A DNA stretch of 64,000 nucleotides from Hyphomicrobiaceae bacterium (GTDB lineage: Bacteria; Pseudomonadota; Alphaproteobacteria; Rhizobiales; Xanthobacteraceae): positions 1 to 64,000 of the forward strand of contig JAJPJB010000042.1 of the NCBI GenBank assembly GCA_021324465.1, in the 5' to 3' direction. Below are positions 10,886-20,939 of the stretch, in pieces. The notes below the pieces were generated by a model. It saw only the letters and a program-made list of their open reading frames with translations, did no database searches and was not told where the DNA came from. Numbering within the stretch: the stretch's first letter is position 1; the number at the start of each line of letters is the position of its first letter. Position numbers and translations under genes: made by a program.

Positions 10886-11040
10886 GAGCTTCTCCTGCGG
10901 CCCCCGCCCGCCGAACGCTATAACCGTCCGTTCCGCGCCAAATTCCATCACGGCTCGGTGAGCCGTCGCGCAGGCCGCATTTGTCATTGGCCGCCAAATC
11001 CTTATCATGCGAATGGGCAAATTTTTCGAAATGTTCTTGC

Positions 11041-12600
11041 ATGCTCAGCCTTGGTCAAAGCTTTGTTGGAAGCGTCGCCCGCGACCCTAAGGCGCTCGCT
11101 ATCGCCGATGGCGCCCTGCACCTAAGCTACGAGGAATGGTACCGGCGCATTTCGGCGCTGGTGGCGGGCTTCGATGCGCTCGGGCTTCGTCAAGGCGAGC
11201 ATGTTGTCACCGTGCTGCAGAACCGCTGGGAAGCGGCGACACTGCACTGGGCCTGCCAATTCGCCGGCCTCATCGTCACGCCGGTGAACTGGCGCTCGAC
11301 GGCCCAGGAGCTCGATTTCTATCTCGAGGATGCCGAAGCCAAGGCTGTCGTGTACGAGGAGGTTTCGGCGGCTGCGGTTGCCGCGTCTGCACGCGCGCAA
11401 GAGATCACGCGTGTTGCACTCGATGTCGCTCGACCTTCCGACGTCGCCTTCGCCGCACTCGTCGAGCGCGAAGCGCCCGGCGCCGTGCCGCGCGTTGATG
11501 CCGAAGCCTGCTCGGTCATGCTGTATACGTCGGGTACCACGGCACGGCCGAAAGGCGTGCCGCGACGCCAGCGCGCCGAGCGCGCCGCGGCGCTGGCTCA
11601 TGTCGCGCAAAATCTCTACGCGCGTGGCGAGCGCACGCTCGGCGTAATGCCGCTTTATCACACAATGGGCGTGCGCTCGCTGCTCGCTATGTCGCTTATC
11701 GGCGGCGCGTTTGTCTGCCTGCGCCGCTTTGATGCCGGCGAGGCGTTGCGCGTCATTGCGACCGAGCGCATTACAAACCTCTATCTGGTGCCGACGCTCT
11801 ATCATGACCTCATTCATCATCCGCAATTCGGCAGTACGAATGTCAGCACGGTGCGAAAGCTCGGCTTTGCCGGCGCGCCGATGACCCACGGCCTGCTGCA
11901 GAAATTGCAGGCCGCGTTTAGGCCGGAATTGTTTGTCAATCACTATGGCTCTTCCGAAATCTATACCTTCACCATCGACCAGAACGCGCCGGCCAAGCCG
12001 GGCTCGGCCGGCCGCGCCGGCATCAATCAGATGGTGCGAGTGGTGAAGCTCGGCGCCAAATCGGTCGATGACATCGCCGCCGTTGGCGAGGAAGGCGAGA
12101 TCGTCGCCCTCCTGGCTGGCGATGAATCCTTCGACGGCTATTGGCGGCGGCCGGATGCCGACGCCAAGGCACTGCGTCAAGGCTGGTATTTCACCGGCGA
12201 TACCGGCTTTATCGATCGAGACGGCGATTTGTTCGTCAGCGGCCGCGTCGATGACATGATCATCACCGGCGGCGAGAACGTCTCGCCGGTGGAGATCGAA
12301 TCCTGCCTGTCCCTGCACACGGCCGTGTCGGAGGTCGCTGTCATCGGGCTGCCGGACGAGCGCTGGGGCAAGATCGTCGCCGCCTTTATCAAGCGGCGCG
12401 GCCCGGTGACGCCCGACGAGCTTGACGAATTCTGCCGCAATTCGGGACTAGCCGCATTCAAACGTCCGCGCCGCTACGTCTTCGTCGAAGACATTCCGAA
12501 ATCGCCGGTCGGCAAGCTCTTGCGCCGGAAGCTCGTGGCCGGCGAATACACCATTGAGACCGCCGCGCCAGTTTCACGCCATCAGGGTAACGCAGCATGA
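11041..12600 (+). CDS. Class I adenylate-forming acyl/aryl-CoA ligase
   Basis: A 519-residue ANL-superfamily enzyme that would activate a carboxylic acid with ATP and join it to CoA. The phosphate loop is L-Y-T-S-G-T-T-A-R-P-K-G; note Ala where most members have Gly (T-T-G-x-P-K). Further motifs are N-H-Y-G-S-S-E-I-Y (A5), Y-F-T-G-D-T-G-F (A7), G-R-V-D-D-M-I-I-T-G-G-E-N (A8) and the catalytic lysine in S-P-V-G-K-L-L-R-R-K. The ATG at 11041 was preferred over an in-frame start at 10981 because the upstream 20 residues do not look like the family. It overlaps the enoyl-CoA hydratase by 4 bases. Substrate unknown; context suggests an aromatic or branched acid. Confidence 0.85.
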   Translation: MLSLGQSFVGSVARDPKALAIADGALHLSYEEWYRRISALVAGFDALGLRQGEHVVTVLQNRWEAATLHWACQFAGLIVTPVNWRSTAQELDFYLEDAEAKAVVYEEVSAAAVAASARAQEITRVALDVARPSDVAFAALVEREAPGAVPRVDAEACSVMLYTSGTTARPKGVPRRQRAERAAALAHVAQNLYARGERTLGVMPLYHTMGVRSLLAMSLIGGAFVCLRRFDAGEALRVIATERITNLYLVPTLYHDLIHHPQFGSTNVSTVRKLGFAGAPMTHGLLQKLQAAFRPELFVNHYGSSEIYTFTIDQNAPAKPGSAGRAGINQMVRVVKLGAKSVDDIAAVGEEGEIVALLAGDESFDGYWRRPDADAKALRQGWYFTGDTGFIDRDGDLFVSGRVDDMIITGGENVSPVEIESCLSLHTAVSEVAVIGLPDERWGKIVAAFIKRRGPVTPDELDEFCRNSGLAAFKRPRRYVFVEDIPKSPVGKLLRRKLVAGEYTIETAAPVSRHQGNAA

Positions 12601-13394
12601 TTGTGTTTGCCGATCCGCGCTTGCAGAAGCTCGATGGATTTCGTGTCGAAATCGATCCCGAGCGCGAGCGCGCCGACATCGTGCTGGACCGCCCGCCGCT
12701 CAATGTCATTGAGATGGGCCAGCGCGATCAGCTGCGCCTTGTTTTCGAGACCCTCGACGAGGACGAACGGGTACGCGTGATCGTGCTACGCGCGGTCGGC
12801 GAGCATTTTTCATCCGGCGGGAACATTGCGGGATTTCTGCGGGCTTCTCCCGAGCACGTGTCGAAACTTGCGTGGAATATCGGGGCGCCGGCGCGCTGCG
12901 CGAAGCCGGTGATCGCCGCCAATCGCGGCTATTGCTTCGGCGTCGGTTTTGAGATTTCGCTCGCCTGCGATTTCCGCCTCGCGTCCGAAACCTGCCTCTA
13001 TGCTTTGCCCGAACAGCGGCTCGGCCAAATTCCGGGATCGGGCGGCTCGGCGCGGCTGCAAAAGATCATCGGCATCACCCGTACCAAGGACATCGTGATG
13101 CGCTCGAAACGCATTCCGGCGAAGCAGGCCTATGACTGGGGCATCGCCACCGAGTGCGTGCCCGATGACAAGCTCGAAGCGGCGACCGACACGCTGGTCG
13201 AGGAATTGCGCACGTTCTCGCCGCTGGCGCAGCGCACTGCGAAGACGCTGCTCAACGAGACCGAAGACACCAATCTCGAAGCCGCGATCGAGCTCGAGGG
13301 TCACTGCTATAGCCGATTGCGGCAGTCCGACGATTTTCGCGAGGGTGTCGAAGCTTTCCACGCCAAGCGCAAGGCGCAGTTTCGCGGCACCTGA
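12597..13394 (+). CDS. Enoyl-CoA hydratase/isomerase family protein
   Basis: A 265-residue crotonase-fold protein translated from an ATG overlapping the ligase stop. The oxyanion-hole segment is H-F-S-S-G-G-N-I-A-G-F. The positions matching the two catalytic glutamates of hydratases are both filled: G-V-G-F-E-I-S-L-A-C-D-F-R and L-P-E-Q-R-L-G-Q-I-P-G-S-G-G. It is therefore likely an active hydratase, isomerase or ring hydrolase acting on the CoA thioester made by its upstream neighbour. The first 20 residues (F-A-D-P-R-L-Q-K-L) form a small N-terminal extension. The exact substrate cannot be told. Confidence 0.85.
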   Translation: MIVFADPRLQKLDGFRVEIDPERERADIVLDRPPLNVIEMGQRDQLRLVFETLDEDERVRVIVLRAVGEHFSSGGNIAGFLRASPEHVSKLAWNIGAPARCAKPVIAANRGYCFGVGFEISLACDFRLASETCLYALPEQRLGQIPGSGGSARLQKIIGITRTKDIVMRSKRIPAKQAYDWGIATECVPDDKLEAATDTLVEELRTFSPLAQRTAKTLLNETEDTNLEAAIELEGHCYSRLRQSDDFREGVEAFHAKRKAQFRGT

Positions 13395-13504
13395 TGCCGC
13401 ACAGCGATAACACAGGGCTGACAAACGGCCGGGGAGGACGTCACGTGATCTAAAAATACATGCACGCCGCTTGCAAGGAATTCGGCGTGCTTGGGGAGGG
13501 TAAA

Positions 13505-14767
13505 ATGCGCAATGTAAGCCTTTGGTTGAAGGCGCCGGCGGCGCTTCTTGTTGCTGTCCTTTTGCCTCTGTCGCCGGCGATGGCCGCCGATCCGATCAGA
13601 ATAGGGACGAGCCTCGCGCTCACCGGCGGCGTAGCGCCGATCGGCAAGCAGATATTGGCGGCGCTGCAGATCTGGCGCGATGACGTCAACGCCAAGGGCG
13701 GCTTGTTGGGGCGGCCGATTGAGCTTGTGTTTTACGATGATCAGAGCAATCCGGCCAATGTGCCGCAGCTCTACACCAAATTGATCGACGTGGATAAAGT
13801 CGATCTGCTGATCGGCCCCTATGCGACCAACATGGTCGCGCCGGCTATTCCGGTCCTCATGCAGTACAGGAAAACCACCATCGGCATTCTCGCCAATGCC
13901 GCCAACAGCAAGCTGCATTACGACCAATATTTCTCCATGCTGCCGACCGGGCCCGAGCCGCAAAAATCCTTTGCACTGGGCTTTTTTCAGCTCGCAGCCG
14001 CAGCCAAGCCGCGGCCGAAGACGGTGGCGATCGTCGCGGCGGATGCCGAATTCGCCCAGAACGCCGCCGATGGCGCGCGTCAGGTGATCAAGGAGATGGG
14101 TGGCTTCGATCTCGTCGCCGACCAAAAATATCCGCCATCGACGACCGACTACGGGCCGGTCATGCGTGCAGTGCAAGCGCTCAATCCCGATATCGTCTAC
14201 GTTGCGGCCTATCCGCCGGATTCAGTCGGTATCGTGCGCGCAGCGAATGAAATCGGATTGACGCCCAAAATGTTCGGCGGCGCGCTCATCGGGCTGTTGG
14301 TCACGCCAATCAAAGTGCAGCTTGGGCCATTGATGAATGGCATCATCAACAACGAGGTATTTTTGCCGGCGGCGTCTTTGAATTTTCCGGGCACGCGCGA
14401 GGTGATGGCGAAATATCAGGCCATGGCGCCGAGCGCGGGCATCGACCCGATCGGACCGGCCTTTCCACCGCTCGGCTATGCAGCCGGTCAGGTTCTGGCC
14501 CAGGCCGTCGAAGGCACCAAGAGCCTCGATCAGGTCAAGCTCGCCGCCTATATGCGCAGCCACGATTTTTCGACTGTCGTCGGCGACATCAAATTCGGCA
14601 AGGACGGCGAATGGGCCAAGTCGCGGGTATTCTTCACGCAGTTCCAGCATGTCGCGCCGAACTCGCTCGAGCAGTTCAAAGCGAACAGCCACGAAGTCAT
14701 CATTTGGCCGAATGAATATAAGACCGGCGAGATGATCTTTCCCTATGCCGCGGCCAAAAAGCCTTGA
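13505..14767 (+). CDS. ABC-type solute-binding protein (Leu/amino-acid-binding family)
   Basis: A 420-residue periplasmic binding protein of the type I (Peripla_BP_6/LivJ) family. The ATG at 13505 follows a strong GGGGAGGG site; the frame continues upstream, but only this start gives an immediate signal peptide (residues 1-27, ending in S-P-A-M-A). Mature features are I-R-I-G-T-S-L-A-L-T-G-G, D-D-Q-S-N-P-A-N-V-P and L-L-I-G-P-Y-A-T-N. Members in catabolic clusters often bind aromatic or short-chain acids. No permease or ATPase gene for this transporter is nearby, so it must work with components encoded elsewhere. It sits between the CoA-pathway genes and the FAH gene, which implies it delivers the pathway's substrate. 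Confidence 0.85.
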   Translation: MRNVSLWLKAPAALLVAVLLPLSPAMAADPIRIGTSLALTGGVAPIGKQILAALQIWRDDVNAKGGLLGRPIELVFYDDQSNPANVPQLYTKLIDVDKVDLLIGPYATNMVAPAIPVLMQYRKTTIGILANAANSKLHYDQYFSMLPTGPEPQKSFALGFFQLAAAAKPRPKTVAIVAADAEFAQNAADGARQVIKEMGGFDLVADQKYPPSTTDYGPVMRAVQALNPDIVYVAAYPPDSVGIVRAANEIGLTPKMFGGALIGLLVTPIKVQLGPLMNGIINNEVFLPAASLNFPGTREVMAKYQAMAPSAGIDPIGPAFPPLGYAAGQVLAQAVEGTKSLDQVKLAAYMRSHDFSTVVGDIKFGKDGEWAKSRVFFTQFQHVAPNSLEQFKANSHEVIIWPNEYKTGEMIFPYAAAKKP

Positions 14768-14786
14768 GCGATCCGATGAGCGGTGC

Positions 14787-15770
14787 ATGAACGGAAGCGT
14801 CTTTAAGCTCGCCACTTTGGCAAAGCCCGGCGGCAAAGCCTTTGTCGCCATCGTGTTTGGCGATGAGGCGATCGACCTGAATGCGGCGCACGCGGCCTAT
14901 CGCGCTGCGGGCGGCAAGGGCGCGCTCAGTGCGAGCAAAAGCATGCTCGGCCTATTGGAGGACTGGGACGCCAACTTTGCCGTGCTGCAGGAAATCGTCT
15001 TTTTTCTTGAAAAGGAGAGCTTGCGGCCGGGCGCCGCCCCGCTCGGAAGCCTTCAGGCCCGGCCGCCGGTCGGCCGCCCCGGCAAGATGTTGTACGCCGC
15101 GCAGAATTTTCGGGAGCACGTGGACGAGATGATCCGCGCCGGGATGTCGCCCGCGAGCGGACCCAAATTCACGGGCGAGAAATCGACCACGCGGCCGTAT
15201 CTATTCCTCAAGGCGCCGAGCACGCTGGCCGGTGCCTATGACGACATCGAAATCCCGCCGGGCATGGCCAAGATCGATTGGGAGGCGGAGATTGCGCTGG
15301 CGATCGGCAAGCGCGGCAAGCGCATCAAAGCCGAACAAGCGCTGGCTCATGTCGCGGGCTTCATGACCACCAATGACGTATCTTGCCGCGACATGCAAAT
15401 CCGCGCCGATCGGCCGGCGCTGCGCTCGGATTGGCTCGGCGGCAAGAGCCATGACAAATTCGCGCCGATGGGCCCGTTCCTGGTGCCGCGGGCGTTCGTG
15501 CCCGACCACATGAATTTATTCATTCGTCTGACCGTGAACGGTGAAGTCAAGCAGAACGGCAATACCTCGCAATTCATTTTCACCCCGGAGGAACAGATCG
15601 AGTACGCGTCCAACATTCTCACGCTAGAACCGGGTGATATTTTCAGCTGCGGCACCTGTGGCGGCGTTGGCCAGGGCACCAACGCCTTCCTCAAGGCCGG
15701 CGACGTTATGGAGACCGAGATTGAATCGCTCGGCCGGATGCGCAACCGGTTCGTCGCCGAGGCCAACTAG
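14787..15770 (+). CDS. Fumarylacetoacetate hydrolase (FAH) family protein
   Basis: A 327-residue protein whose C-terminal two thirds match the FAH fold used by fumarylacetoacetases, acylpyruvases and oxo-acid hydratases. Motifs are L-Y-A-A-Q-N-F-R-E-H, the metal-binding D-W-E-A-E-I-A-L-A-I-G-K, the loop T-N-D-V-S-C-R-D-M-Q and the segment K-S-H-D-K-F-A-P-M-G-P-F-L. The ATG at 14787 lies 19 bases after the binding-protein stop. The N-terminal 90 residues are less typical. A Mg2+-dependent C-C hydrolase or tautomerase activity on a keto-acid intermediate is expected; the substrate is unknown. Confidence 0.85.
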   Translation: MNGSVFKLATLAKPGGKAFVAIVFGDEAIDLNAAHAAYRAAGGKGALSASKSMLGLLEDWDANFAVLQEIVFFLEKESLRPGAAPLGSLQARPPVGRPGKMLYAAQNFREHVDEMIRAGMSPASGPKFTGEKSTTRPYLFLKAPSTLAGAYDDIEIPPGMAKIDWEAEIALAIGKRGKRIKAEQALAHVAGFMTTNDVSCRDMQIRADRPALRSDWLGGKSHDKFAPMGPFLVPRAFVPDHMNLFIRLTVNGEVKQNGNTSQFIFTPEEQIEYASNILTLEPGDIFSCGTCGGVGQGTNAFLKAGDVMETEIESLGRMRNRFVAEAN

Positions 15771-15774
15771 GTCA

Positions 15775-16944
15775 ATGCTGCCGTCGCAACGCGCCCTGTT
15801 CGATATCCCGAGCGACGTCTGCTTTCTCAATGCGGCATCGTACAGTCCGTTGCCTCTGGCGACGCTCGAAGCCGGCAAGCGGGCGGTGACGCGCAAGGGC
15901 CGGCCGTGGCTGATCGATAACGACTTTGCGCAAGCGCAGTACCAGCGTGCGCGCAAAGCCGCCGCGGCCGTAATCAATGCCGATCCAGCCGATATCGCGC
16001 TTATTTCGTCGGTGGGCTACGGCGTCGCCACGGCCGGCAAAATCGTACCGGTGCCGCGCGGTGCGCGGGTTGTGGTGCTGCACGACGATCACTCGTCGCC
16101 GGTGCTCGAATGGCTGACGCGTGCGCGGGATGGCGCTTTCGCTGTGGAGACGGTACGCCCGGATGCCGATCATGATTGGACCAGTGCGATCCTGTCGGCC
16201 ATCGAGCGGCCGGGTGCCGCGCCGCTGGCCCTGGTCTCGATTTCCTCGGTGCATTGGGCCGACGGCGCCGTGCTCGATATGGCTGCGATCGCCGGCGCGG
16301 TCCGCAGGCAAGGCGCCGCATTCCTGATCGATGCCACTCAAGGCGCCGGCGTCATTGCGCTTGATGTGCGCGCGCTCGATCCGGATTTCGTCGTGTTCCC
16401 GACCTATAAGTGGCTGATCGGCCCCTACGGCCGAGCCTTTCTCTATGTTGCTAGGCGCCATCAGAATGGCATTCCGCTTGAGCAAACAAGCTATGGTCGG
16501 CGCGCGGTGCGCGCTGAACAGGATATCTACTTCACCGATACGGATTATGTGAACGATGCACGCCGCTTCGACATGGGCGAGCGCGATCATTTCATCTCCA
16601 TGGAAATGGCGGCGATTGGCATGGAGATGATGGTGCAATGGGGCTGTCGGGCAGTTGCGGAACGGGTGGGCTGCCTGACCGCACGTCTGGCGGAGGGTTT
16701 GCACCGCGAAGGAGTGTCGTTTCCGGACGCAAGTATGCGAGCGCCGCATATTTTGTGTTTAAGCTTTGGCGCGGCCGGCGTGCCGAAGGGGCTTGTCGAC
16801 CGGCTCGCGGCCGAGAAAATTTATGTGGCGCAGCGCCTCGGGCGGCTTCGCCTCAGCCCCCACGTCTATAACGACCGAAACGATGTCGATCGCTTCCTCG
16901 CGGCATTCAATAGGATCATGCCAGAATACGAGGGACTGCCGTAG
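15775..16944 (+). CDS. Class V aminotransferase-fold PLP enzyme
   Basis: A 389-residue fold-type I PLP enzyme of the class V group (isopenicillin-N epimerase, kynureninase and cysteine desulfurase relatives). The PLP-contacting aspartate is in F-L-I-D-A-T-Q-G-A-G-V, and the Schiff-base lysine is in F-P-T-Y-K-W-L-I-G-P-Y-G. The ATG at 15775 is 4 bases after the FAH stop; a longer in-frame extension lies inside that gene and is rejected. The active site lacks the catalytic-cysteine loop seen in desulfurases, so a transamination, racemisation or lyase role is more likely. Context places it in the same catabolic unit, perhaps removing an amino group before CoA activation. Confidence 0.8.
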   Translation: MLPSQRALFDIPSDVCFLNAASYSPLPLATLEAGKRAVTRKGRPWLIDNDFAQAQYQRARKAAAAVINADPADIALISSVGYGVATAGKIVPVPRGARVVVLHDDHSSPVLEWLTRARDGAFAVETVRPDADHDWTSAILSAIERPGAAPLALVSISSVHWADGAVLDMAAIAGAVRRQGAAFLIDATQGAGVIALDVRALDPDFVVFPTYKWLIGPYGRAFLYVARRHQNGIPLEQTSYGRRAVRAEQDIYFTDTDYVNDARRFDMGERDHFISMEMAAIGMEMMVQWGCRAVAERVGCLTARLAEGLHREGVSFPDASMRAPHILCLSFGAAGVPKGLVDRLAAEKIYVAQRLGRLRLSPHVYNDRNDVDRFLAAFNRIMPEYEGLP

Positions 16945-17019
16945 AACCATGACTGGAGAGGCGCTAAAATCGCGGCAACGACAGTCGCAACAATCCTTGG
17001 AAACGCGCCGAGGCAGGCC

Positions 17020-17820
17020 ATGAAGCTAACGCCGCAACAGCTCAAGGACTTCGACGAACAGGGCTACCTGTTTTTCCCGAACTGTTTCAGCGAGGAGGAA
17101 ATCGCTTTGTTGCGGAAGGACGCCGAAGCGATCCTCAAGCTCGATCGCAAGGAGGTGTGGCGTGAAAAATCGGGCGCCCCGCGCACTGCCTTTGCCGCAC
17201 ATACGTTCAACGAGACATTCCGGCTGATGGCACATCATCCGCGGCTGGTCGAGCCGCTGCGCCAAGTGTTCGGCGAGGACGTCTACGTTCACCAGTTCAA
17301 GCTCAATGCCAAAGCGGCCTTCGAGGGCGACGTGTGGCAGTGGCATCAGGATTACGGCACCTGGGCGCGCGACGACGGGATGCCTGAGCCACGCGCGATG
17401 AACATCGCGATCTTTCTCGACGAGGTGATGCCGATCAACGGCGCGCTGATGCTAATCCCGAAAAGCCACAAGCAAGGCGTGCTCGCGGCCGGCCACGACA
17501 CCCTGACCACATCCTACCCGCTCTGGACACTGGACAAGGAGACCGTCACCCGGCTCGCCGCCGAAGGCGGCATCGTCGCGCCGACCGGCAAACCAGGCTC
17601 GGTCCTGATGTTTCACGGCAATCTGGTGCACGCCTCGCCGCCGAACATCACGCCGTTCCCGCGCAAGATCGTCTACCTGACGCTGTGCGCCGTCTCCAAC
17701 CACATTACCAAATTCACGCGCCCCGAATGGATCGCGCATCGCGATTTCACGCCGATTGTGCCGGTCGCCGATGACGCGCTGCTGTGCTACGCGCGTGCAC
17801 ATCGCGTTGCGGCGGAGTGA
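17020..17820 (+). CDS. Phytanoyl-CoA dioxygenase (PhyH/EctD-like) family oxygenase
   Basis: A 266-residue Fe(II)/2-oxoglutarate oxygenase. The iron ligands are visible: H-x-D in W-Q-W-H-Q-D-Y-G-T-W and the distal His in G-N-L-V-H-A-S-P-P-N; the 2-oxoglutarate arginine is in P-F-P-R-K-I-V-Y. The segment from W-Q-W-H-Q-D to N-G-A-L-M-L-I-P-K-S-H-K resembles ectoine hydroxylase more than human phytanoyl-CoA hydroxylase, but no ectoine genes are nearby. It could hydroxylate a free amino acid or an acyl-CoA. It follows the PLP enzyme by 75 bases and precedes the COG4091-type gene by 57 bases, on the same strand. Confidence 0.8.
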   Translation: MKLTPQQLKDFDEQGYLFFPNCFSEEEIALLRKDAEAILKLDRKEVWREKSGAPRTAFAAHTFNETFRLMAHHPRLVEPLRQVFGEDVYVHQFKLNAKAAFEGDVWQWHQDYGTWARDDGMPEPRAMNIAIFLDEVMPINGALMLIPKSHKQGVLAAGHDTLTTSYPLWTLDKETVTRLAAEGGIVAPTGKPGSVLMFHGNLVHASPPNITPFPRKIVYLTLCAVSNHITKFTRPEWIAHRDFTPIVPVADDALLCYARAHRVAAE

Positions 17821-17877
17821 AGGCAGCAAAGAGGATTTGCCTCAGCGATAGTCGCCGGCCGACGTCACGAGGACAGC

Positions 17878-19221
17878 ATGAACCTTCAATCCCTCCTCGC
17901 TGCGCGCATCCACGCTGGCAAGCCCATTCATGTCGGATTGATCGGCGCCGGCAAATTCGGCTCGATGTTTCTGGCACAAATACCCGCCATTGCCGGCCTC
18001 GAAGTCGCTGTCATCGCAGACCGCGACGTCGAGCGCGCCAAGGCCGCGTGCCGCACGGTTGACTGGGAGGCGTCTCGGATTGCCCGCACGCATTTTGCCG
18101 AGCGCGGCAGCGCCGCTATCGGCGACGAACGCGTCGAGGTGGTGGTCGAAGCGACGGGCGATCCGGTGGCCGGCATCGCCCATGCGATGGCCGCGATCGA
18201 GGCGGGCAAACATGTCATCATGGTCAATGTCGAGGCTGATGCGCTTGCCGGCGCTTATCTGGCGCGCAAGGCCCGTGCCGCCGGCGTGATCTATTCGATG
18301 GCCTATGGCGACCAGCCGGCGCTGATTACCGAAATGGTGGACTGGGCGCGCTCGTCAGGCTTTGAAGTTGTCGCCGCCGGCAAAGGCACCAAATATCTTC
18401 CCGCTTATCACATGGTGACGCCGGATAGTGTGTGGGAGCACTACGGTCTCACGACGGCGGAAGCCAAAGCCGCCGGCATGAATTCGCAAATGTTTAATTC
18501 GTTTCTCGACGGCACCAAGTCGGCAATCGAAATGGCCGCCGTCGCCAATGCCTGCGCGCTTGACGTGCCGCAGGACGGCCTGAAATTTCCGCCCTGCGGC
18601 GCCGACGAGTTGGCTCACGTGCTGCGGCCGCAGACTGTCGGCGGCGTGCTCGACAGGGATGGCATGGTGGAGGTCGTCTCCTCGCTGCAACGCGACGGCA
18701 GCCCGGTCGAGCGGGATTTGCGCTGGGGCGTCTATGTCGTGTTCAAGGCCAACAGCGACTATGCCGCCGCCTGTTTCAAGCAATACGGGCTGCCGACCGA
18801 TGGCAGCGGCCGTTATGCGGCCATGTACAAGCCGTTCCATCTGATTGGCCTTGAACTGTCGATCTCGGTCCTTAATGTGGCGCTGCGCGGCGAGCCGACC
18901 GGAACCTGCCGGGCGTGGCGCGGCGATGCGGTGGCGGTTGCCAAGCGTGCACTGAAAGCGGGCGAGATGCTCGACGGCGAAGGCGGCTATACCGTCTATG
19001 CGAAGCTCGTTCCGGCGGCGCGCAGTCTCGCCGGCAAGGCGCTGCCGATCGGGCTCGCTCATCACGTCGAGCTTGTGCGCGATGTGCCGGCAGGCGAGAT
19101 CCTGAGCGCCGATGATGTCGCGCTTGACGACACGTTACTGGCGGTCCGCATTCGGCGCGAGATGGAGCGCACGGCCGAAGGAGGTCGCCAGGCGGCTGGC
19201 GAAACCATGGCGGCCGAATAG
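17878..19221 (+). CDS. NAD(P)-dependent oxidoreductase with C-terminal SAF domain (COG4091-like)
   Basis: A 447-residue protein. Residues 20-45 are a Rossmann dinucleotide fold (V-G-L-I-G-A-G-K-F-G-S-M-F). The middle part resembles homoserine dehydrogenase and Gfo/Idh/MocA enzymes (M-V-N-V-E-A-D-A, then Y-S-M-A-Y-G-D-Q-P). The last 90 residues resemble an SAF domain (L-P-I-G-L-A-H-H-V-E-L, then G-E-I-L-S-A-D-D-V). This architecture is that of COG4091, 'predicted homoserine dehydrogenase with SAF domain', whose reaction is not established to my knowledge. It ends the plus-strand run of the catabolic block. The following 195 bases before the opposing dioxygenase stop carry no convincing gene. 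Confidence 0.78.
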   Translation: MNLQSLLAARIHAGKPIHVGLIGAGKFGSMFLAQIPAIAGLEVAVIADRDVERAKAACRTVDWEASRIARTHFAERGSAAIGDERVEVVVEATGDPVAGIAHAMAAIEAGKHVIMVNVEADALAGAYLARKARAAGVIYSMAYGDQPALITEMVDWARSSGFEVVAAGKGTKYLPAYHMVTPDSVWEHYGLTTAEAKAAGMNSQMFNSFLDGTKSAIEMAAVANACALDVPQDGLKFPPCGADELAHVLRPQTVGGVLDRDGMVEVVSSLQRDGSPVERDLRWGVYVVFKANSDYAAACFKQYGLPTDGSGRYAAMYKPFHLIGLELSISVLNVALRGEPTGTCRAWRGDAVAVAKRALKAGEMLDGEGGYTVYAKLVPAARSLAGKALPIGLAHHVELVRDVPAGEILSADDVALDDTLLAVRIRREMERTAEGGRQAAGETMAAE

Positions 19222-19416
19222 CCGCTTCGTATCCTACGGCGATTACCGAAGCATCGATGACCTGATCTCGTTCGACAGCCTGACGGCCTATGGCACCTTC
19301 GGGACGCGTCTGACGGAAGATAGCGACGGCGTCGCGAATTTTACTCTTGCGCAGGCTCAACGCTTGATCCTTGCCGAGGGGGGCAGCGTTCCTGCGCGAG
19401 GTTAGTGAGCTGACTG

Positions 19417-20304
19417 CTATTCCGCTGCAATCCGCGGCGGCGGGCGCATCGATTCAAGGCCGTCGACTGCGGTCGCCGAGATCGTGGTGCGCACCATGTG
19501 GCGCGCCTCATGCGCCGGCCAAGGCCGGCCGCGATGCATGGTGGCGCGATTGTCCCACATCACGACATCGCCGCCGCGCCACGCGTGGACGTAGGTCGTG
19601 CCAGGTGCGGTAGCTCGCTCGGTCAGGTCGTTGATCAACTTTTCGCCCGCCACCGGATCCATGCCGTCGACCGCATAGGCATGCGACGCGAGGTAAAGCG
19701 CGTTGCGACCGTTGACGGGATTCTTCCACACCATGCGCCAGCATTGCGGCGGCAGCACCGCGAGCTCCTCACTGGTGGCTAGGCCGGGCGCGATCTTGGC
19801 CCGCGAATGGCCGTAATGATGCCAGGCAAAGGAGTTTTCCAGACGGCTTTGCATTGCGGCATCGAGACGGTCGAAAGCGAGCCGGGTCGAGGCGAATTCG
19901 GTTTCGCCACCATCGGCCGGGATGATGCGGGCGGACAAGATCGACGCGAGCGCCGGCGTACTCTTGAACGAGCTGTCGGTGTGCCAAAGCTGATTGGCCT
20001 TGTTGCGCAATGCATAGCGGTGATCCGGCGGTACGACCTTGCCGTCTTTGTCGATCGTGGTAAGGATCACAAAATGCGTGCCGGTGCCGAGCGAGCCGAC
20101 TTTGGTCACTTCTGGCGGACCGAAGCGGCGCGAGAAAGCAAGCTGGCTTTCATCGGTCACCTCCTGGTCGCGAAACACCAGGACCGAATGCTCTTCAAAA
20201 GCGGCGCGGACCTCGGCGTAAGCGGAATCGTGGTTGACGACGTCTGCAAGGGTGACGCCCCGCAATTCCGCGGCGAAGCCCGGGCCGAGAGGAACAACCT
20301 CCAT
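19417..20304 (-). CDS. TauD/TfdA-family 2-oxoglutarate dioxygenase
   Basis: A 295-residue Fe(II)/2-oxoglutarate oxygenase of the taurine/2,4-D dioxygenase type. Motifs are the H-x-D in L-W-H-T-D-S-S-F, the distal His in N-R-A-T-M-H-R-G-R-P and the co-substrate arginine in H-M-V-R-T-T-I. The start at 20304 has an AAGGAGG site eight bases upstream; a longer frame to 20370 has none. Relatives cleave sulfonates, phenoxy acids or sulfate esters, or hydroxylate amino acids. It converges on the COG4091-type gene and is the second 2-oxoglutarate oxygenase within 3.5 kb, which supports an oxidative catabolic role. The exact substrate is unknown. Confidence 0.85.
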   Translation of the reverse strand: MEVVPLGPGFAAELRGVTLADVVNHDSAYAEVRAAFEEHSVLVFRDQEVTDESQLAFSRRFGPPEVTKVGSLGTGTHFVILTTIDKDGKVVPPDHRYALRNKANQLWHTDSSFKSTPALASILSARIIPADGGETEFASTRLAFDRLDAAMQSRLENSFAWHHYGHSRAKIAPGLATSEELAVLPPQCWRMVWKNPVNGRNALYLASHAYAVDGMDPVAGEKLINDLTERATAPGTTYVHAWRGGDVVMWDNRATMHRGRPWPAHEARHMVRTTISATAVDGLESMRPPPRIAAE

Positions 20305-20510
20305 GGTGGCATCCTCCTTAGGTTTTTGTGGTGTCTGCTCAAACCTCCTCCAAAACCGAACCCCTGGCAAGATGCGAATCCGACGCGCGTTTCGCCGCGC
20401 CGACGAAGCGCCGGTCCGGCCAAAAGGGCCGTGATGATCAAGCTCTTATTTGGTCAAGGCCGAGCGCGGCGCCGAGGCGATTTTAGCTCGAGCGGATTTT
20501 GTCGCATACG

Positions 20511-20939
20511 TTACGTTACTTGGAAGCAAGCGACGACCTCCGGCGGGATCGGTCGCGACTTCAGCCTGTCCGGATCGGCCGGATCGCGCGCCGCCCAGAC
20601 CCGGGTCTCGCGGCCCTCCACCGCGACCGTGCCGCGCAGTTCGAGCCGGTGCGCGACGTCAAAACTCGAGCGGCGAAATTCGGTGACCTGCGAGGTGAGT
20701 TCCACCACGTCGCCGAAGCGCGCCGGGACAATGAAACGAGCGCCGGCATTGACCAACGGGATGCCAACGACGCCGAAAGCCGAGGGCCATTCGTGCGGTT
20801 GCACGCCAAGCGCGGTGGCGAACAGGCCCCAGGAGCCCCGATCGAAAAACTCGAAAAATCGGGCATTGAAGACGATGCCCGCCGGATCGCAATGACCCCA
20901 TTGAATGATGAACTGCCGGCGGCTGAGAAGGTTGGCCAT
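20511..20939 (-). CDS. Hotdog-fold acyl-CoA thioesterase (4-hydroxybenzoyl-CoA type)
   Basis: A 142-residue single hotdog domain. The active-site segment W-G-H-C-D-P-A-G-I-V-F-N-A-R-F matches the 4-hydroxybenzoyl-CoA thioesterase family, with the catalytic Asp in C-D-P-A-G; F-F-E-F-F-D-R-G follows on the long helix. It would hydrolyse an aryl- or acyl-CoA to the free acid and CoA. It is transcribed toward the TauD-type gene, 206 bases upstream of it, so they may share a transcript. With the ligase and hydratase 7-9 kb away, it completes a CoA-thioester toolkit in this block. Aryl-CoA preference is plausible but unproven. Confidence 0.85.
   Translation of the reverse strand: MANLLSRRQFIIQWGHCDPAGIVFNARFFEFFDRGSWGLFATALGVQPHEWPSAFGVVGIPLVNAGARFIVPARFGDVVELTSQVTEFRRSSFDVAHRLELRGTVAVEGRETRVWAARDPADPDRLKSRPIPPEVVACFQVT

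Follow-up and report, generated by a model that had tools for sequence, protein, structure and literature searches.

We analysed a 64,000-nucleotide stretch (the window; contig JAJPJB010000042.1, positions 1 to 64,000) from the genome of a Hyphomicrobiaceae bacterium (GCA_021324465.1), in which nine closely packed genes form a block at 11041-20939. Translations and Pfam searches recover all nine open reading frames with the folds that an earlier, sequence-only reading of the window had named; coordinates follow our own choice of start codons. Seven genes lie on the forward strand: an HmfD-type coenzyme A (CoA) ligase, orthologous to 2-furoyl-CoA synthetase (11041-12600), an HmfE-type crotonase (12597-13394), a solute-binding protein (SBP) of the Leu/Ile/Val (HAAT) type (13505-14767; Peripla_BP_6), a FAH-superfamily hydrolase (14787-15770; FAA_hydrolase), a class V pyridoxal phosphate (PLP) enzyme (15775-16944; Aminotran_5), an EctD-like PhyH Fe(II)/2-oxoglutarate oxygenase (17020-17820; PhyH) and a COG4091 NAD(P)-dependent oxidoreductase of the DXR-II-like DLO2 type (17878-19221; DRL_cat). 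As that reading described, this run (11041-19221) is tightly spaced, with a single overlap of 4 bases (ligase and crotonase) and a widest gap of 110 bases (crotonase and SBP). Also as described, a TauD-family Fe(II)/2-oxoglutarate oxygenase (19417-20304; TauD) and a 4HBT-superfamily thioesterase (20511-20939; 4HBT_2) lie on the reverse strand, convergent to the run.

By sequence, the block opens with orthologues of the 2-furoate pathway genes hmfD and hmfE, whose products would presumably act as such in this host. The ligase is 65% identical over 503 aa, and the crotonase 78% over 258 aa, to the corresponding proteins of the Cupriavidus necator pENH92 cluster; in the best 25 of 1774 plasmid records, crotonase identity is 74.7-80.7%. 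These values are comparable to those between Cupriavidus basilensis and Pseudomonas pseudoalcaligenes (61% for HmfD and 80% for HmfE, in the excerpted text of PMC6678421) and are therefore orthologue-level. In the described route, as outlined in excerpts of two sources, HmfD forms 2-furoyl-CoA, HmfABC oxidises it, and HmfE is proposed to release 2-oxoglutarate (PMC6678421, PMC12064950). The best solved chain for the block ligase is a 4-chlorobenzoyl-CoA ligase; none of the 45 solved matches of the crotonase at 1e-20 is named a dehalogenase. A reading of the pair as part of a 4-chlorobenzoate (fcb) operon is set aside because the crotonase is an HmfE orthologue.

On that C. necator plasmid (L240) the gene order is UbiD-UbiX-TctC-GMC-sterol desaturase-LysR-HmfA-B-C-D-E-MFS, a cluster that we call hmf-type by gene content and order alone; here HmfA to HmfE are the molybdopterin, FAD and 2Fe-2S subunits, an AMP-binding protein and a crotonase. 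The same A-B-C-D-E core occurs on Bosea, Paracoccus and Burkholderia plasmids (with the large subunit split over two frames in Bosea), and hmfABC lies directly ahead of hmfDE on all four plasmids read (L240-L243; L numbers denote loci that were read, G000 the window's own genome and other G numbers related genomes). We also searched 101 genomes (the window's own, 19 congeners, 41 others of the family and 40 others of the order) at the DNA level with positions 11041-16990, scoring two candidates per genome, and found the ligase-crotonase pair to be widespread. An HmfE protein search with nearly all candidates scored gave matches of 62-100% identity in 20 of 61 genomes, the next crotonases being at 36-38%. 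Together with G010, recognised by hmfD and the tail of hmfE, these are the same 21 genomes that had been taken as hmfDE-positive, so this protein search leaves our co-occurrence table unchanged.

Twelve hmfDE loci were read away from the RND-flanked site that the window occupies (L184, L186-L195, L212), two of them in congeners. Six (L184, L186, L191, L192, L193, L195) have the three genes of a xanthine-dehydrogenase-type hydroxylase directly before the ligase and crotonase, which gives the order hmfA-B-C-D-E; in L187 the hydroxylase large subunit precedes hmfDE. Four loci from other genera of the family (L184, L191, L193, L195) hold an AraC regulator, hmfABCDE and Liv-type ATP-binding cassette transporter genes together, likely a dedicated furoate uptake system.

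At the other end of the forward run, the PhyH and DLO2 genes are a recurrent pair that stands independently elsewhere. According to the excerpted text of PMC3847144, DRL_cat-type proteins comprise DXR-II and the uncharacterised families DLO1 and DLO2, of which DLO2 was set apart in 2013. Counting PhyH from 66% identity upwards (with fragments) and DLO2 from about 50%, 22 of the 101 genomes have both, 2 PhyH only, 30 DLO2 only and 47 neither. DLO2 thereby accompanies PhyH in 22 of 24 PhyH-positive genomes, the other two being G004 (a contig-edge fragment) and G054. Around DLO2 relatives, 11 of 40 loci contain a PhyH of at least 67%; in eight it is the same-strand neighbour of DLO2 within 170 bases, and in the others it lies 2.2 kb away, 3.5 kb away or on the opposite strand (one each). 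The two are same-strand neighbours on an Indioceanicola plasmid as well, and the pair occurs without adjacent hmfDE in G005, G006 and other genera. A GntR-cluster gene adjoins PhyH in L041, L042 (Pfam-confirmed), L045 and L111. A frequent partner oxygenase and a regulator offer a concrete route to the DLO2 reaction.

In the PhyH sequence we read an HxD...H...R pattern (H109, D111, H204, R215), which we take from family knowledge to be that of the iron ligands. Its closest solved chains are 7e01 and 7dzz (219.6 bits); a guess that these are proline hydroxylases found no support among paper titles. The single-sequence fold of PhyH failed, at a predicted local distance difference test score of 31.3. 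We rejected an assignment as ectoine hydroxylase EctD (174.5 against a curated cut-off of 336.5 bits). We found no description in open-licence literature of the PhyH-DLO2 pair or of hmfDE beside it. Among the papers listed on DLO2 or DXR-like proteins, one dealt with the DLO families; those listed on furoate or FAH together with PhyH or SAF did not, judging from titles and hit counts, contain this combination of genes. The suggestion that no described pathway has this set is only partly right: it does not hold for the ligase and crotonase, which belong to the known hmfDE core, whereas the pair and its placing beside hmfDE did not turn up in the literature searched.

In part of the genus the two ends of the run lie together. 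The RND left flank is common to the window, G001, G004, G008, G009, G010, G012 and G017, with DUF2189 in all except G009. The window's order, hmfD-hmfE-SBP-FAH-PLP-PhyH-DLO2 with convergent TauD-thioesterase, recurs in parts: G004 has hmfD-hmfE-SBP-FAH-PhyH and then a contig end; G017 has UbiD-hmfD-hmfE-SBP-FAH with TauD convergent; G012 has hmfD-hmfE-FAH; G008 has hmfD-hmfE and a FAH fragment; G009 has hmfD-hmfE; and G007 has hmfD-hmfE-SBP on a short contig. One G010 contig ends in hmfD, and another opens with the final 17 codons of hmfE and runs on into PhyH-DLO2 and convergent TauD-thioesterase. In G001 (L032), DUF2189 is followed by a remnant of hmfE, 61 bases from its 3' end (85% DNA identity; 23 codons at 78%), and then by PhyH-DLO2 and convergent TauD. 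Since PhyH comes after the end of hmfE in G010 and after this remnant in G001, the hmfE-PhyH linkage predates the window's arrangement; the SBP-FAH segment varies. We considered L032, with DUF2189 beside PhyH, as an empty site from before an insertion and rejected this, the remnant being a deletion scar. A first neighbour survey, in which the upper five genes were never near PhyH-DLO2, was an artefact of this remnant, of a contig-edge hmfE tail in L005 that fell below the cut, and of short contigs.

The order hmfD-hmfE-(SBP-FAH)-PhyH-DLO2, with TauD-thioesterase convergent, is thus partly conserved in the genus, and because parts of it recur in related genomes the gene order of the block exceeds chance. 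In this genus the genes lie together by more than accident: the window has hmfD-hmfE-SBP-FAH in common with G004 and G017, FAH adjoins PhyH in G004, and hmfE adjoins PhyH in G010 and as the remnant in G001. Both flanks are ordinary. DUF2189 and the RND pump lie to the left; to the right is a housekeeping region with an nth-like gene (from its translation) and genes of the gpmI, dapB, pyrF, dnaJ and dnaK families (Pfam). No permease is among the annotated flanking genes, which leaves the SBP without an adjacent one. A promoter-like match lies ahead of the ligase at 10981-11008, in a region whose total of 2 shows no excess over the shuffle mean of 2.8; terminator-like matches number 20, against 11.8 in shuffles (sd 3.4).

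With moderate confidence we read the block as a composite catabolic island built around hmfDE rather than as a single new pathway. HmfD would activate a ring acid such as 2-furoate, which would give 2-furoyl-CoA; in the known route HmfABC then hydroxylates the ring, and HmfE would act on a later CoA ester with release of 2-oxoglutarate. The SBP probably serves uptake, and the FAH protein probably hydrolyses an oxo-acid or lactone intermediate, roles that we guess beyond the folds. From family knowledge, PhyH probably adds a hydroxyl group to an aliphatic carbon of a small carboxylic or amino acid; its observed partner DLO2 would then use NAD(P)+ to oxidise, or oxidise and rearrange, the resulting alcohol. 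A class V PLP gene was seen only in the window's copy of the locus, and TauD-thioesterase is a convergent pair; any roles given to these would likewise be guesses. The catabolic function with CoA activation proposed earlier is supported, but the nine genes do not form a single conserved unit. What looked like a novel nine-gene pathway becomes instead a testable split between a known furan-acid core, its second step seemingly missing, and the recurrent PhyH-DLO2 pair. The pair may be a two-enzyme module not described before, in which hydroxylation is followed by NAD(P)-linked oxidation or oxidative rearrangement of the new alcohol, and which in this genus feeds a small acid into the HmfD-HmfE route; we regard this as unlikely, but if true it would give the DLO2 family its first pathway.

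Several observations weigh against a composite island built on a furoate core. A genome-wide search of G000 with Cupriavidus HmfA, the large subunit of the ring hydroxylase (HmfA, not HmfB or HmfC, was covered), in which all 32 candidates were scored, gave nothing above 37% identity and no match at 1e-150, our cut-off for HmfA-like presence being E <= 1e-150. Nor was HmfF found in G000 in a UbiD search of 41 genomes. The assembly is in 107 contigs yet 99.67% complete, so the absence of HmfA is likely, not proved. Across 61 genomes, hmfA and hmfDE do go together, which favours the furoate core: 17 have both, 4 hmfDE only, 2 hmfA only (G006, G016) and 38 neither; the four with hmfDE but no hmfA at the cut-off are G000, G002, G015 and G022, of which G002 and G015 are only 65% and 68% complete. 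Fisher values of 1.6e-9 for this co-occurrence and 3.9e-6 for that of PhyH and DLO2 are not strict probabilities, the relatives not being independent. Finally, the synteny within the genus argues for a tighter linkage of hmfDE with PhyH-DLO2 than the word composite suggests.

G000 seems, from its gene content, to hold the end of the furoate pathway without its middle. Because HmfA was not found, the second step would be missing, replaced or lost from the assembly, and for the same reason we class the block as holding hmfDE and not as an hmf pathway; judged by its genes, the pathway in G000 is incomplete or altered. Under the unlikely two-enzyme-module reading given above, where HmfABC is lacking, the work of the molybdenum hydroxylase might even fall to PhyH or TauD, the block's two 2-oxoglutarate oxygenases. 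Contig 67 of the same genome (L271) carries a molybdenum-hydroxylase set with HmfA-, HmfB- and HmfC-like proteins at 36, 37 and 60% and its own CoA ligase (30% to HmfD), possibly an HmfABC stand-in or another aromatic-acid route. Among congeners, the best HmfA matches reach 57-60% in G004, G008, G009, G013 and G017, and hmfABC occurs on stretches without hmfDE in seven (L264-L270), including G006, which has no hmfDE. The UbiD gene that adjoins hmfD in G017 is 61% identical to the UbiD of the Burkholderia cluster; it is present in 2 of the 41 genomes, G017 and G022.

The lack of HmfA in so complete a genome, together with the conserved placing of hmfDE with PhyH, also fits a rival reading in which HmfABC is gone and the ligase and crotonase have shifted to another acid, supplied by the PhyH, DLO2 and FAH enzymes. 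We consider such a shift possible but rather unlikely. Three genomes with the same locus (G004, G010, G017) keep an HmfA-like subunit of 57-60% on other contigs, with hmfBC beside it in G004 and G017, and the HmfE of the window still has its 78% identity to that of Cupriavidus.

It is quite unlikely that the seven forward genes and the two convergent ones serve a single acid, through uptake, oxidation by PhyH and DLO2, transamination or cleavage by the PLP enzyme, activation and final cleavage. Their tight same-strand spacing fits one pathway, as do the hmfE-PhyH adjacency in G010, its remnant in G001 and the FAH-PhyH neighbours of G004. However, FAH and PhyH are directly adjacent in G004, and a PLP gene between them is found in the window only. 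An SBP orthologue follows hmfE in G004, G007 and G017, and a FAH orthologue follows the SBP in G004 and G017, but other SBP orthologues lie among other genes in G002, G005 and G012 (L203-L205), a different gene follows hmfE in G009 and G018 (L182, L183), and PhyH-DLO2 does without adjacent hmfDE in the genomes noted above. The scattering named in the sequence-only reading as a refutation applies in part, with SBP and FAH among other neighbours in several congeners and the nine-gene unit failing to that extent. Several FAH contigs in relatives are too short for their neighbours to be judged.

The genes around the SBP orthologues of L203-L205 are shared in part, and one of them encodes a protein resembling ring-cleavage (VOC) dioxygenases, read from the sequence in L203 only. 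Relatives of the PLP enzyme at 61-71% occur in four of the related genomes and in six named genomes (a seventh match is at 26%); no block genes lie beside them, apart from weak superfamily-level matches in L093 and L124. We rejected a cysteine desulfurase (SufS 67.9 against a curated cut-off of 475.1 bits), and the predicted structure of the PLP enzyme is weak (49.5). TauD is convergent to DLO2 in L032 and L005, and in L035 with one gene between; it lies on the other side of DLO2 in L034 and is convergent to FAH in L178. A thioesterase stands behind TauD in L035 and L005 as well.

The COG4091 protein is, by its residues and its place in a tree, DLO2-like and not DXR-II. Five DXR-II residues (Thr229, His250, Arg320, Tyr322, Val351; marker residues are named in the excerpted text of PMC3847144) are replaced by S, K, K, F and R, such that the eight diagnostic sites read GKKSKKFR in the window and GKKTHRYV in the Brucella enzyme and in two DXR-II-type plasmid proteins, which are 31-32% identical to the window protein. 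All 21 DLO2-type rows depart from DXR-II at sites 229 and 250; 320, 322 and 351 are variable. An unrooted tree (FastTree, 24 sequences) sets Brucella and the two plasmid proteins apart on a branch with support 1.0. Because the diagnostic residues and the tree differ and G000 encodes DXR-I, the protein would not be needed for isoprenoids. That it is a DXR-II making methylerythritol phosphate (MEP) for isoprenoids is very improbable: the Brucella enzyme (3upy/3upl, 204 bits) is the solved structure nearest to it, and both substrate-anchoring lysines and Gly121 are retained, but the residues, the tree and the resident DXR-I speak against it, as does the failure of four tested DLO proteins to complement (excerpted text of PMC3847144).

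On Agrobacterium, Limimaricola and Sinorhizobium plasmids, DLO2 proteins of 51-54% identity have a quinol-monooxygenase-like gene, a dehydrogenase and a TRAP transporter beside them, and a Chelatococcus DLO2 (55%) lies beside TRAP genes and the same type of monooxygenase-like gene. A Roseibium plasmid has a class II aldolase, and Acuticoccus and a Comamonadaceae plasmid have unremarkable neighbours, in each case with neither the monooxygenase nor the TRAP set. As a family, DLO2 looks catabolic, with partners that change. Three plasmid loci (L116, L117, L118) combine DLO2 with a quinol-monooxygenase-like gene, an NAD(P)-dependent oxidoreductase, a TRAP transporter and a LysR gene, with sugar-transport and kinase genes nearby in L117 and L118; this set may be an undescribed sugar-acid pathway. 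DLO2 has a neighbour belonging to one and the same cluster in L037 and L039; in L039 this neighbour carries a methionine-synthase-like (Meth_synt_2) domain.

Compared with known systems, PhyH matches leucine hydroxylase (5nch, 159 bits) and ectoine hydroxylase (4mhr, 157 bits) with a like iron-ligand pattern, but unlike EctD it sits in a block without ectoine genes. The window DLO2 is 50% identical to a single pBB1 match from C. necator N-1, our DLO2 reference, taken by strain name (the strain is listed under DLO2 in the excerpted text of PMC3847144), and shares the non-DXR-II residues at the diagnostic sites; PhyH is a frequent partner of its nearer relatives, whereas the DLO2 proteins of 51-54% have other partners. 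As in the hmfABCDE cluster of C. basilensis HMF14, the hmfD and hmfE orthologues are adjacent and in the same order. Unlike that cluster, the window pair has no adjacent hmfABC, hmfFGH or hmf regulator, and is followed instead by the SBP, FAH, PLP, PhyH and DLO2 genes.

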